Shown one piece after another: positions 402 through 5,566 of a stretch of DNA of 59,851 nucleotides; the first letter of the stretch is position 1; every line of letters begins with the position of its first letter. The notes beneath the pieces are model-generated. The model had not been told where the DNA came from. It did not search any database and saw only the letters and a list, made by a program, of their open reading frames with translations. This stretch comes from a bacterium (GTDB lineage Bacteria; Desulfobacterota_D; UBA1144). The stretch covers positions 1 to 59,851 of the forward strand of contig JABILG010000005.1 in NCBI GenBank assembly GCA_018654605.1, read 5' to 3'. The translations under genes were made by a program, and so were the position numbers.

Positions 402-1769
402 TTAATCAAAGATTTTACCCGGATTCATAATATTATTAGGATCTAGTGTTTTTTTTATCAATTTCATCAAATTTATTGAAGTTGGATGCTCAGATAGCAA
501 ATACTCTTTCTTGTTTAGCCCAATTCCATGCTCTCCGGTCACAGTTCCTCCCAATTCTAGGGTTTTTTTCACTAATTTGTCACTAAAATTTCTGATAATT
601 TTAAAATCTTCTTTATTTTCTGGGTCATATAGAACAGTTACATGAAAATTACCGTCACCAACATGCCCTACAATAGGTGCCTTTAAGCTTAAATTTTGTA
701 TTTCTTGTTCGGCAAACTTAATACAATCTGCAAGTTCGGTAATTGGGACACACGCATCAGTCGCGTAAACTCTAGCATTTGGCTTTAAAGCCTTAACTGA
801 CCAATAGACGTCATGCCTGGCTTTCCACAATTTATTCCTTTCTTCAAAATCTTTCGACCATTTAAAATTAAAGCCCCCATTTTCCTCAGATATTCCCTTG
901 CAACTTTCAATTGATTCGATGTTTCCATTCTCCGTCCCATGAAACTCAAAAAAAAGTGTTGGCTTAATTTCAAGGTCTAATAATTTAGAAAAATTAATGC
1001 TAATCTCCATTTGATCAGCATTTAGAAGTTCGATTCTAGCAATAGGAATTCCAAACTGAATTATCTCTTTAACTGAGTTAACAGCATCATCTAAAGAATT
1101 AAAATGACAGATTCCACTAATTAGACTTTCTGGAATAGGGCTTAATCTTAGTTGAATTTCAGTGATGATTCCCAAAGTACCCTCAGAACCAATAAACAAT
1201 CCTGTTAAATTATATCCGGAAGATGTTTTTTTTGATCTTCCTCCAGTTTTAATAATTTCACCAGTTGGTAGAACGATTGTAAATCCCAAAACGTTAGTCC
1301 GCATTGTGCCATAGCGAACTGCCATAGTCCCTGAGGCAGAAGTTGCGCACATGCCACCTATTGATGCATCAGCACCAGGGTCTATAGGAAAAAAAACACC
1401 CTGGTCTTTTAAATAATTATTCAGCTGTATTCTTGTGACAGAGGCTTGAACCCTACAATCAAAATCATCTTTGTTGACTTCTATCATCTTATTCAGGTTT
1501 TCCAGGCTTATTGATATTCCCTCTTCTATTCCTACAACTTGCCCCTCCAAAGAGGTCCCTGCGCCGAATGGAACAACGGGAACCATAAAATTATTGCAAA
1601 TTTTTAGTATCGCAGATACTTCTTCTGTTGTATTAGGAAAGGCTACTCCTAAAGGCAAGATAGGGTCAAATATATCTTCACCTTTAGAATAGTTTGACCT
1701 AACGCTCTCTGAAGTAGAGAACCTGGTTCCAAGCAAATTATTAAGTTCACCTACAAAAACTTTATCCAT
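402..1769 (-). CDS. FAD-linked oxidase, D-lactate/glycolate dehydrogenase family (GlcD/LDHD-like)
   Basis: Flavoprotein of the vanillyl-alcohol-oxidase fold that oxidises a 2-hydroxyacid such as D-lactate or glycolate and passes electrons to a carrier. The PCMH-type FAD domain fills the N-terminal half, with PFGAGTSLEGQ at about residues 67-77 and GMCATSASGTMAVRYG near 140 contacting FAD. The C-terminal oxidase domain carries the family signatures GHVGDGNFHV and TGEHGIGLNKKEYL. At 455 residues it is a full-length single-subunit enzyme closer in size to LDHD and GlcD than to the two-domain Fe-S fusions. No glcE or glcF partner is adjacent. The ATG at 1769 is preferred over an in-frame TTG at 1775: there is no Shine-Dalgarno site, but TATAAT ends eight bases upstream, suggesting a leaderless start. 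The exact substrate cannot be told. Confidence 0.85.
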   Translation of the reverse strand: MDKVFVGELNNLLGTRFSTSESVRSNYSKGEDIFDPILPLGVAFPNTTEEVSAILKICNNFMVPVVPFGAGTSLEGQVVGIEEGISISLENLNKMIEVNKDDFDCRVQASVTRIQLNNYLKDQGVFFPIDPGADASIGGMCATSASGTMAVRYGTMRTNVLGFTIVLPTGEIIKTGGRSKKTSSGYNLTGLFIGSEGTLGIITEIQLRLSPIPESLISGICHFNSLDDAVNSVKEIIQFGIPIARIELLNADQMEISINFSKLLDLEIKPTLFFEFHGTENGNIESIESCKGISEENGGFNFKWSKDFEERNKLWKARHDVYWSVKALKPNARVYATDACVPITELADCIKFAEQEIQNLSLKAPIVGHVGDGNFHVTVLYDPENKEDFKIIRNFSDKLVKKTLELGGTVTGEHGIGLNKKEYLLSEHPTSINLMKLIKKTLDPNNIMNPGKIFD

Positions 1770-1777
1770 AGACAATA

Positions 1778-2037: not shown

Positions 2038-3393
2038 TTAAAATTTTAGTTGCGCTTGGACTCTTATGGTTCTTGTTTGTTTATCATCTCCAGTTAATTG
2101 TTGTTCATTAATGTATCCATAATCTGCATTAATTTTTAAATTATGTCCGACGAAATATTTTGAAACTTGGTATGTATGTTCAAGTATTTTGTCCTTTTTT
2201 TGATCAGAATTATCCCTAACACCATACCTATAGCCTGCGACCCAACCATTCGTAATATGATAATTACCTTGGATTCTAGCCCAATCTAAACTTTCTTTGC
2301 CATAGCCTAAAATTGATTCATCTCCAGTTAGAGTTGTATATTCAAATTCACCAGAAAGTCCTTTATATTTGAATCCCACATCATAAGTTCTAGATGATAT
2401 ATCCAGATAAGTAACACCAGTAAGAGCTGTTTTACCATTTTTGCTATATGCAGTAGCTATGTCTTCAATTCTATCATCTAGTTTACCGCTATGACCCAAA
2501 GATGTTGTTCCGTCTTCTTCTTTAAAAGCAGAGCCAGTATAGTAAACATTTAGACCATTCCACCACAACTGTGAAGCACCTATTCTTAACTTCATCTCAT
2601 CAGACTTTTTAAGATCTACTTGACCGTACTTCATCTTGCCAAACGGAGTCCATTCAATTCTTGTTACGTATATTTTATCCCACACATCTGCCTGGCTTGA
2701 TCCTCTTGCATTATTTCCACCAAGACCAGCGCCTAGAAAACCTGTTAACATCAATGTCTTGTTTGGCATTGATAAATCAAGTTTAATACCATGATCTCTT
2801 TCAAAAGTTAGATGCTTGGAAGATCTATCAACAAAAGTGAGCTTACTAGATGAAGTTAGCGCTTCAAGGGTATGAGGAACATGCATTTGGCCAACTGTAA
2901 GTCTAAGAACTTCTCCAGTCTTATAGCCAAAGTATGCATCTTCAATACCAAACCCATCGGCACCAACACAACCAGTCCCATTTTTATCTGAACATATTGA
3001 GTATTTATAAAAAATATCTGGGCTATAGGCATAACCATTGAATGTAAGTTGAAATCTCCTTGTTTGAAAATCATGGCTTGTGCCTTCAGATCCATCAGAA
3101 CTTGTAGGACCTCTTTTTTCCTGGTTCTTTTCAGCGCTTTCAAATCTAAACTGTATCCTGGCGCCAATATTTAATTTAAAAGCATCTCCACCCTTAAACT
3201 CTAACCCACTTCCGGCTTCATATTTTAATTTAATATCATTTGATTTAGAACTTAAATCTGTTCCAAAAATGTTAACAGACTTCTGTACTGTAGAATCCTC
3301 TTCGACTTCCGACGATATAACTTCTTTGCTAAATACATTAAAAGAAAACAACATAGGAGTGAATAAAAAAAGAAAAACTAATACTTTCTTCAC
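2038..3393 (-). CDS. Phosphate-selective porin O/P family outer-membrane channel
   Basis: A 451-residue outer-membrane beta-barrel of the OprP/OprO type, whose known members are trimeric anion channels selective for phosphate or polyphosphate. It begins with a signal peptide (MKKVLVFLFLFTPMLFSFNVFSKE). A short spacer then leads into the barrel, with the family-typical start IGARIQFRFES and QTRRFQLTFNGYAYSPDIFYKY at about residues 75-130. Alternating strands run to the end, and the last residue is Phe (RVQAQLKF), the usual barrel-assembly signal. It begins two bases after the stop of the PiT-like transporter gene, so the two are surely co-transcribed, which supports joint uptake of phosphate or a similar anion across both membranes. 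No Pho box was recognised. Selectivity is inferred from the family, not from identified binding lysines. Confidence 0.8.
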   Translation of the reverse strand: MKKVLVFLFLFTPMLFSFNVFSKEVISSEVEEDSTVQKSVNIFGTDLSSKSNDIKLKYEAGSGLEFKGGDAFKLNIGARIQFRFESAEKNQEKRGPTSSDGSEGTSHDFQTRRFQLTFNGYAYSPDIFYKYSICSDKNGTGCVGADGFGIEDAYFGYKTGEVLRLTVGQMHVPHTLEALTSSSKLTFVDRSSKHLTFERDHGIKLDLSMPNKTLMLTGFLGAGLGGNNARGSSQADVWDKIYVTRIEWTPFGKMKYGQVDLKKSDEMKLRIGASQLWWNGLNVYYTGSAFKEEDGTTSLGHSGKLDDRIEDIATAYSKNGKTALTGVTYLDISSRTYDVGFKYKGLSGEFEYTTLTGDESILGYGKESLDWARIQGNYHITNGWVAGYRYGVRDNSDQKKDKILEHTYQVSKYFVGHNLKINADYGYINEQQLTGDDKQTRTIRVQAQLKF

Positions 3394-3395
3394 TT

Positions 3396-4361
3396 CTAGT
3401 ACCCACCTTCGACTAAGTATTGAACAAGGATAATTGCAATAATTGATATCCCCAATCCTAATATTATTTTTCCAAAATCTTTCGCCACAATTGGGAATAT
3501 ATATTTAAATTTATAATCTTTTCTCATAGTTGAGATTGCTAATTCTCTTCCAGTCAATAATCCTACAAAGACCCAGGTGGTAGACATAGGTAAATCGTTT
3601 AGTTCTTTGAAGAAATAGAGAATGCTTGCATAAATCAAATCTATAATTGTTGTTGATCTCAAATACCTAGCGCCAGTTTTAGTCAAAATAATTTTTTGAA
3701 TTCTTCCACCTTCTGACTTAAATATCACTCCTAGAATTAAAACACCTACTGATAAAACAAATATTAGTACCTCTACAGAAATTTGTCTTGGAAGATAGAC
3801 TGCTATATTTGCCATATCATGCTGTAGCCAAGTAACCCAAAGATATGAACTAGATACCCACTGAGCTACTCTCCAATATCTAATATTTTTCTGCTTTACT
3901 CTATCTGTCTTCTCGTCAATATAAGAGCTAATAACAAGCCATAAAACATATGCTGTAACAGCCGCAACTCCATACCCCATAACTGATTTAACGATGATTT
4001 TCTCTAAAATAAATCCTGAAGCAAAAACAGAAAATACAAGGAAGGTTGTTGAAACAGGAATTCCATATCTGGTTAAAAGAAGAAGAATCGCTGGTGCCAT
4101 AACGTGGTACCACCTAGGCTCAATATAATCTATTCGGGCCAACCTACCATAAGCTATGTCCCCATTATTCGTATACCAACAAAAGAAAACTATTGTACAA
4201 AAAACTAAAGCCCCAAACATAAATTTCCATTTCCAGTTAATTTTTTCGTTAGCGGCTATAAAAGTTCCAAGCGTTTGAATAGAATCATTGCCAATTACGG
4301 AATAGCTCGCTAGCATAAAGCCAATTATTGCCCAAATACTTAAATCAAAGAGTTGTTCCAT
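3396..4361 (-). CDS. Divergent PiT-like inorganic anion (phosphate?) transporter
   Basis: A 321-residue integral membrane protein with about eight to ten hydrophobic segments. Two internally repeated motifs resemble the PiT phosphate-permease signatures. The N-terminal GNDSIQTLGTFIAAN and the mid-protein QHDMANIAVYLP stand where PiT has its GANDxANA repeats, and PVSTTFLV and PMSTTWVFVGLLTG stand where PiT has its PxSTTH motifs. It is shorter than typical PiT proteins and the motifs are degenerate, so the substrate might be phosphate or another oxyanion. Its ATG overlaps by one base (TAATG) the stop of a 49-residue membrane peptide, and the OprP-type porin follows two bases later, making a three-gene unit. 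The assignment is moderate: the motif pair and the context support it, and no similarity search was done. Confidence 0.6.
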   Translation of the reverse strand: MEQLFDLSIWAIIGFMLASYSVIGNDSIQTLGTFIAANEKINWKWKFMFGALVFCTIVFFCWYTNNGDIAYGRLARIDYIEPRWYHVMAPAILLLLTRYGIPVSTTFLVFSVFASGFILEKIIVKSVMGYGVAAVTAYVLWLVISSYIDEKTDRVKQKNIRYWRVAQWVSSSYLWVTWLQHDMANIAVYLPRQISVEVLIFVLSVGVLILGVIFKSEGGRIQKIILTKTGARYLRSTTIIDLIYASILYFFKELNDLPMSTTWVFVGLLTGRELAISTMRKDYKFKYIFPIVAKDFGKIILGLGISIIAIILVQYLVEGGY

Positions 4362-4510
4362 TAAGATGTCACCTTTTTATATATTATAAGAAAACGGGTT
4401 ATTCCTGATCCTGTTAAGATAGTTTTGTATTTAGGATAAAATGACAGCTCTATAATTGTAGACAATGCGAGAAAAATGATTAGTAAAATGCAAAGTATTA
4501 TTATTTCCAT
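4361..4510 (-). CDS. 49-residue single-span membrane peptide coupled to the PiT-like gene
   Basis: A short frame just upstream of the PiT-like gene. The product begins MEIIILCILLIIFLALSTII, one clear transmembrane helix of about 19 residues, followed by a basic cytoplasmic-looking tail with Tyr, Lys and Arg. Its TAA stop overlaps the transporter ATG by one base, the classic arrangement for translational coupling. There is no Shine-Dalgarno site before its own ATG; a -10-like TATTTA ends eight bases before it and a perfect TATAAT lies further up. I recognise no family. By analogy with small subunits such as KdpF it may stabilise or regulate the transporter, but that is inference. Confidence 0.55.
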   Translation of the reverse strand: MEIIILCILLIIFLALSTIIELSFYPKYKTILTGSGITRFLIIYKKVTS

Positions 4511-4533
4511 TTTGTCGATAAATATGAACAACA

Positions 4534-4564
4534 ATTATAGAATTTCAAGTTTTTTAGTCTACAA
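4534..4564 (-). promoter_or_regulatory. Candidate promoter of the small peptide/PiT-like/porin unit
   Basis: On the minus strand TTGTAG (4559-4564), a 19-base spacer and a perfect TATAAT (4534-4539) precede the ATG at 4510. An alternative is TTGAAA with an 18-base spacer to TATTTA, ending eight bases before the ATG, which would make the transcript leaderless. The rest of the gap 4565-4771 holds only a small palindrome (GGAGC-AAAT-GCTCC, 4676-4689) with no T-run; no gene or RNA was recognised there. Confidence 0.35.
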
Positions 4565-4771
4565 ACTAATTTGTTTTGAATTTTCTCAAGCTGCACCAAC
4601 CTAACCTCAACGAAAAATATTGGACATTTGTGCAAGTATGTTATTTATGAATTTATCAAGACTAAGCTAATAGAGGGAGCAAATGCTCCTACTAGCGACA
4701 AGAGAAAAAACTGATTTTCTTACTTATTTAAATAAAAATTTTTAAATTGCAAACAAAAGGAAATGTTTATA

Positions 4772-5566
4772 TTAATGGAGATTCTTAGTTTCAGCTTTCA
4801 CAGAGGAATTGTATATTTCCATAGCAGCTGGGAGAAGCTTTTTTAAATTACTTATTCTATTTTGTGTTGCAGGATGAGTGCTCAACCACTGGGGTGGCCT
4901 TTTCTTGTCTTTATTGGTTTCGTACATAATCTCCCAAAATTTTACCGCCTCCTCTGGGTTATAACCTGCTCTGGCCATATAAATCAAACCAATTTCATCA
5001 GATTCATTCTCTTGAGCTCTACTAAATGGCAAAATAACTCCAACCAAAAGTGTTGGGATATAGGCTTGAAATACTGCATATTGAACAGCTGGATCCTTAT
5101 CTCTTAAGGCAATCTGAAGTGCTACTGAACCTATTTGAGCAAGAATTCCTAAGCTCATCCTTTCCCCACCATGTCTGGCAGTTGCATGTGCAATTTCATG
5201 ACCCATAACAGCTGCAATTTGACCCTCGTTTTCCATAATGTCCAAAATACCCTCATAGAATGCAATCTTACCGCCCGGAAGGCACCAAGCATTAATCATA
5301 TCGGACTTAAGTACGTTAAACTCCCAATTATAATTCTTTCCAGTTGCTGGAGCAATCCTATTACCTACACGGTTAACGGCATCTATATAAACCTGATTAG
5401 ATGATTTTTCATTATCTTTTAGTGCCTGGGCATATGCAGTTACACCGAGATTAATTTCTTGATATTCAGATAGCAAAATTAACTGGCTCCTGCCAGTAAT
5501 AGGTGCAGTTGTACAGGAGATGAATATGCATATAAAAGAAAAAACTAAAAAGTATTTTCTTAACAT
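4772..5566 (-). CDS. M48-family zinc metalloprotease, lipoprotein
   Basis: A 264-residue periplasmic, membrane-anchored peptidase of the M48 family (LoiP/BepA/Oma1-like), probably acting in envelope protein quality control. The start is a lipoprotein signal with Cys18 (FIS-C), so the mature protein is lipid-anchored. The zinc motif HEIAH is at 123-127, followed by ATARHGGER. A third ligand glutamate lies in the segment RAQENESDEIGL near residue 190. The C-terminal THP-x-TxNRI motif (STHPATQNRISNLKKLLP) is typical of the family. No TPR domain follows, so it is the short type rather than full BepA. Its ATG lies two bases after the stop of the aminotransferase gene, so they form an operon, though no functional link is evident. 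Confidence 0.88.
   Translation of the reverse strand: MLRKYFLVFSFICIFISCTTAPITGRSQLILLSEYQEINLGVTAYAQALKDNEKSSNQVYIDAVNRVGNRIAPATGKNYNWEFNVLKSDMINAWCLPGGKIAFYEGILDIMENEGQIAAVMGHEIAHATARHGGERMSLGILAQIGSVALQIALRDKDPAVQYAVFQAYIPTLLVGVILPFSRAQENESDEIGLIYMARAGYNPEEAVKFWEIMYETNKDKKRPPQWLSTHPATQNRISNLKKLLPAAMEIYNSSVKAETKNLH

Follow-up and report, generated by a model that had tools for sequence, protein, structure and literature searches.

PstSCAB with its Pho regulators is the textbook high-affinity route for phosphate, a nutrient that limits much ocean life, and together with PhoU it provides the usual signal input for PhoR/PhoB. Viruses also take part in this biology and pstS is known in cyanophages. 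Work from 2012 described pho4 in algal viruses and a PHO4 clone of phage origin close to HIMB59 (PMC3429862), and pit was described in soil phages in 2024 (PMC10987575). In offshore SAR11 bacteria without pstSCAB-phoU and phoBR, pitA is reported to be the sole phosphate transporter (PMC12636525).

The locus described here lies in the window, the whole 59,851-nucleotide stretch of DNA that was analysed, from a genome (G000) of a family of marine Dadabacteria. A preliminary description had proposed a three-gene anion uptake unit of nearly fused genes, encoding a small membrane peptide, a divergent PiT-like permease and an OprP-type porin. The features that concern us are as follows.

402 to 1775, minus strand: GlcD-like FAD oxidase gene, named by sequence appearance; the porin-side neighbour in both permease and pst genomes.
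2038 to 3393, minus strand: Porin_O_P outer-membrane porin, 451 amino acids, with a GTG start 2 bp past the permease stop (Pfam, Foldseek).
3396 to 4361, minus strand: permease with a divergent PiT fold, 321 amino acids, a proposed phosphate importer (ORF, sub-threshold PHO4 match, AlphaFold2, Foldseek).
3816 to 3821, minus strand: H181-D182 of the second permease repeat, identical in all 50 family members.
4284 to 4289, minus strand: N25-D26 of the first permease repeat, identical in all 50 family members.
4361 to 4510, minus strand: the 'small membrane peptide' ORF, which probably arose by chance within the leader (neither frame nor codon position conserved).
4362 to 4771, minus strand: leader that separates the permease from the M48 peptidase gene (sequence and alignment).
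4772 to 5566, minus strand: M48-type peptidase gene, one edge of the swapped slot, named by sequence appearance; the same neighbour in permease and pst genomes.

The ORF listing and the sequence bear out the tight packing. The short ORF ends at 4361 and overlaps the permease start by one base, in TAATG, and two bases (3394-3395) separate the permease stop from the porin start. Permease and porin occur in the same order and strand in the relatives G003, G005 and G008; they are adjacent, yet divergent, in G012, and share one locus in G007 and G010, with phoR-phoB in between. The two genes are a conserved pair, beyond chance. The pair recurs in relatives and in some Alphaproteobacteria, but the proposed three-gene order was seen nowhere else.

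The permease, on the evidence of a predicted model, is a PiT-fold protein. Its Pfam match to PHO4 (PF01384) is weak (E 1.3e-4), at 21.5 bits below the curated cut-off of 33.7, and an NCBIfam search gave no match to permease or porin. Searching the PDB by permease sequence alone returned nothing, and a profile search did not retrieve 6L85, the sodium-dependent phosphate transporter TmPiT; profile searches with the canonical PiTs from these genomes do retrieve it (4.6e-31). Profile-profile comparison gave no link between the permease and the canonical PiTs of its own genome. The fold was used for assignment because sequence-only and profile-profile searches found nothing. The AlphaFold2 model, built on a 50-sequence alignment (pLDDT 82.8, pTM 0.81), has 6L85 as its sole significant Foldseek match in the PDB (E 1e-4, probability 1.0, TM 0.65), the next structure having an E of 0.59. 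A non-PiT fold would have told against the original assignment; the comparison instead supports it. The degenerate repeats cited earlier (GNDSIQT, QHDMANI, PVSTT and PMSTT) are all present. Across 50 family sequences N25-D26 and H181-D182..A184-N185 are invariant. The GANDVANA-type signature is degenerate in both repeats, and the permease has phenylalanine or tryptophan in place of the STTH histidines.

The porin matches Pfam Porin_O_P with an E of 2.8e-16 and 60.2 bits, against a cut-off of 20.9. Its model is modest (pLDDT 67), and Foldseek ranks OprP (2O4V) and OprO (4RJW) first, each with E about 1e-15. The OprP-type label therefore holds for family and structure, and the protein is a putative phosphate-type porin. 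In G008 only, the permease locus has an extra gene, encoding a DUF6311 membrane protein, 28 bp downstream of the porin (L032:2037-3716).

Comparison of 14 genomes of the family indicates what the pair replaces. The pst genomes have the order Aat-M48-phoU-pstB-pstA-pstC-pstS-phoR-phoB-porin(-GlcD), read on single contigs in G006 (porin cut) and G009 and assembled from two contigs in G001; PstS, PhoR and PhoB-type domains were identified by Pfam and PhoU by PF01895, while PstC, PstA and PstB were assigned by transport domain, position and sequence appearance. The order in G000, G003, G005 and G008 is Aat-M48-permease-porin-GlcD. One and the same slot is thus occupied by phoU-pstBACS-phoRB in G001, G006 and G009, and by the permease in G000, G003, G005, G008 and G012. 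G007 and G010 are intermediate, with the permease between M48 and phoR-phoB-porin and phoBR kept. PstS and PhoU were not found in the eight permease genomes (G000, G003, G004, G005, G007, G008, G010 and G012), nor was the permease found in the four that have PstS and PhoU (G001, G006, G009 and G011), an exclusion of 8 against 4 with no exception (Fisher p 0.002), to be read with the caveat that the window genome is 92% complete and a pst cluster elsewhere in it could be missed. In G002 and G013 a contig end truncates the locus, and neither permease nor PstS was seen. PhoB (63-100% identity) is present only in G001, G006, G007, G009, G010 and G011, and the PF02690 Na/Pi cotransporter was found in none of the 14 genomes. 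The PstC of pst Dadabacteria, about 740 amino acids long, has WD40-like repeats (weak Pfam matches) before its transport domain (L041:10515-12746). We also note that PhoR and PhoB stand beside the permease in G010 and G007 (L036, L037), genomes in which PstSCAB and PhoU were not found; PhoBR there may either be constitutive or have a new signal route.

Upstream sequences follow the same pattern. Across the 226 kb examined there are 25 TTAAC pairs with an 11-bp period; other periods give 0-4, except the harmonic, 22 (16). In pst genomes such arrays precede the porin and pstS; G007 and G010 have them ahead of both permease and porin. They lie directly before the porin in G001, G007, G009 and G010, with one pair in G011, and a single pair is left between porin and permease in G012. 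The window has no TTAAC 11-bp array anywhere, leader included, and its genome has no PhoB; in G007 and G010 the homologous genes do come with tandem 11-bp boxes upstream and PhoB in the genome. A search for E. coli-type Pho boxes (CTGTCAT) gave nothing convincing, the arrays being of the TTAAC type. They share core and period with the cyanobacterial Pho boxes, which are CTTAACCT repeats with 3-bp linkers (PMC1906773), and on this sequence likeness may bind PhoB. The genomes can be placed in a series from pst with PhoBR, through permease with PhoBR and permease with a relict box, to permease alone, although we caution that this orders content and is no dated history.

The family extends well beyond Dadabacteria. 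A search with the permease alignment found 440 relatives in genome contigs. Among 118 SAR11-family genomes PstS is missing in 18 of the 22 with the permease and present in 85 of the 96 without it (p 2e-10, uncorrected for relatedness); four have both. In two SAR11 genomes (G090 and G108) about 76-80 bp lie between the permease start and a divergently oriented phoR-pstSCAB-phoU-phoB cluster. The reliance of pst-less SAR11 on pitA is already published and is not new here (PMC12636525); since we see the same exclusion, that pitA very probably belongs to the same family. In SAR11 loci (L073-L127, L236) an LMWPc ArsC-type gene and an aquaporin gene often lie before the permease; the pair has been described as an arsenic module, apparently without the permease (PMC6426599). 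One other alphaproteobacterial order has the permease in 50 of 142 genomes, and in five of the 46 loci read a Porin_O_P-type porin lies directly 3′ of it on the same strand, 4-44 bp away.

The permease is also present on at least 578 IMG/VR contigs. On those whose genes were tested its neighbours are T4-like, including major head protein, baseplate, tail, clamp loader and DNA polymerase genes. A PstS homologue adjoins the phage permease in eight of 80 viral loci (L139, L142, L147, L155, L158, L159, L185 and L195), placing a secondary permease beside an ABC-type binding protein. Two queries gave no permease match among INPHARED phages, and no relatives of the alphaproteobacterial porin were found in viral contigs. 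The viral and SAR11 members tested have no Pfam match, and none of the family members tested is called by Pfam, NCBIfam or PHROGs, so the role of the family is probably undercounted.

In the permease tree the window lineage (with G005 and G008) stands apart from the g4 lineage (G007 and G012), which groups with phage contig L133 with support of 100/99. L140, the same phage as L133 by shared genes, carries T4-like baseplate genes. A single Dadabacteria permease clade is rejected by the AU test (p 0.003); the tested group was defined by taxonomy, but a quick tree had already been seen before the test, and the tree is unrooted with long branches. Dadabacteria appear to have acquired the permease at least twice, with transfer perhaps from phage to bacterium. 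A wider proposal, which we hold tentatively and think rather doubtful, is that a phage-borne permease family has repeatedly displaced Pst/PhoU/PhoBR in streamlined marine bacteria by independent captures into the native phosphate locus. PhoBR in G007 and G010 is left without Pst/PhoU, so the permease may there have taken over phosphate signalling.

Does the permease carry phosphate? The preliminary description took the degenerate repeats to suggest an altered substrate or coupling. An altered substrate is not favoured, since the swapping with Pst at one locus, the Pho-box-like arrays and the mutual exclusion with PstS and PhoU all point to phosphate. A PF01384 PiT adjoins cysN-, cysH- or cysI-like genes in the window genome and nine others, these names resting on sequence appearance and BLAST among the genomes. 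The window genome's copy (L047, contig C7, 6024-7007) overlaps or abuts CysN- and CysH-like genes. The canonical PiTs have GANN in both repeats, an aspartate-to-asparagine change that may bear on substrate, and the copy in the cysteine-type operon is probably a CysP-type sulfate permease. The PiT with an altered substrate is thus probably this canonical-looking gene and not the divergent permease, which lies outside any sulfate assimilation gene cluster and is left as the sole phosphate importer recognised in the window genome. Sulfate was discarded as the first-choice substrate of the permease, the cysteine-type cluster having a PiT of its own. It is improbable, on our assessment, that the permease moves some other oxyanion (sulfate, arsenate or phosphite) and that the loss of Pst is coincidental or offset by a phosphate importer that has gone unrecognised. 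Sulfate transport does occur among PiT-fold proteins, as in CysP, the permease motifs are degenerate, and the arsenic-type neighbours in SAR11 would suit such a role; these neighbours would also fit leakage of arsenate into the cell by way of a phosphate carrier. Against another oxyanion stand the placing of the genome's other PiT with cysteine genes, the arrays before the permease in PhoBR genomes, an exclusion of PstS that holds in two phyla, and the pairing of the phage permease with PstS.

The part played by the partner genes is a separate matter. Porin_O_P members differ in substrate, most genomes of the family show one strong porin relative, and the porin stays at the locus under either inner-membrane system, all of which would suit a general porin of the lineage that sits by the permease incidentally, with no dedicated trans-envelope route for phosphate. 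We judge this possible but unlikely: the closest structures are those of OprP and OprO, Pho-box-like arrays lie directly before the porin in four genomes (a pair in a fifth), and in some Alphaproteobacteria members of this permease family also have a porin gene after them. Far less credible still is the three-component unit first proposed, with the small peptide as a permease subunit. It had in its favour the TAATG overlap, a hydrophobic peptide start and a similarity between the G000 and G004 peptides above that of shuffles, but homologous leader DNA would be expected to give such similarity, and a Shine-Dalgarno-like AAGGTGA (4369-4375) ahead of the permease explains the overlap. The leader is about 130-410 bp long in five relatives and in the window also contains promoter-like sequences, a weak candidate block. 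The short ORF, 49-57 codons long, is missing from G005 and G008, and its product has no homologue. The congeners G003 and G004 have aligned leader DNA with frame-breaking indels, and their substitutions by codon position (15/17/21, 18/11/8 and 14/15/13) carry no codon-position signature. An ORF this long has a chance of about 14% of arising in a 411-bp leader of the same composition. Judged on sequence it is probably a chance ORF in the operon leader, and we discard the peptide as a transporter subunit. The operon-like packing of permease and porin is retained and the unit becomes one of two genes.

We therefore consider it likely that permease and porin form a phosphate uptake unit that replaces ABC-type Pst and its PhoU/PhoBR control. 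The porin would pass phosphate across the outer membrane. Movement over the inner membrane would fall to the permease as a secondary transporter of PiT fold, with an ion gradient as its probable driving force, and both genes are presumably expressed constitutively from one transcript. This reading draws on the fold, the swap at one position, the exclusion of Pst and PhoU, the absence of PhoB and arrays in the window lineage, the arrays before both genes in the intermediates, the placing of the other PiT in a cysteine operon and at least two origins of the permease. Most likely the function is ordinary, phosphate uptake, and what carries it is an unusual, unrecognised and phage-associated permease family standing at the Pst position. 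The locus offers a series of stages in the dismantling of Pst/Pho by a streamlined lineage, and ties the replacement gene to uncultured T4-like phages.

How does the unit compare with described systems? TmPiT (6L85; PiT/PHO4, PF01384) shares the whole-protein fold and the two repeats, the ND and HD..AN pairs of the permease lying at the positions of GAND and GANDVANA; PVSTT/PMSTT corresponds to PVSTT/PISTT. The permease differs in having H181-D182 in place of asparagine-aspartate in the second repeat and in its length of about 320 amino acids as opposed to 402. From the PiT/PHO4 family at large, E. coli PitA included, it is set apart by its score below the Pfam cut-off, the missing profile link to 6L85 and the phenylalanine or tryptophan in place of the STTH histidines. 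CysP-type sulfate permeases belong to the same PiT family, with one such member in the cysteine-type operon of this genome, but the divergent permease keeps aspartate in both repeats and a Pho-type context whereas the cysteine-operon PiT has GANN. The porin shares family and best structural matches with OprP and OprO of Pseudomonas aeruginosa, at 17% identity.

The SAR11 pitA is likewise reported as sole transporter where pst is missing, but Dadabacteria, a porin partner, in-place replacement and a phage link are not described there (PMC12636525). The flexible phosphate islands of HIMB59 (PMC10734472) are similar in that a fixed chromosomal site of a streamlined marine bacterium varies in its phosphate genes; those islands all keep pst, whereas at the Dadabacteria locus pst is gone and one permease takes its place. 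Virus-borne pho4 (PMC3429862), pit (PMC10987575) and cyanophage pstS are comparable as phosphate transport genes on viruses. The present case differs in concerning one specific short PiT family, carried by at least 578 IMG/VR contigs that are T4-like where tested and sometimes have PstS as well, and in its phylogenetic tie to a chromosomal replacement.
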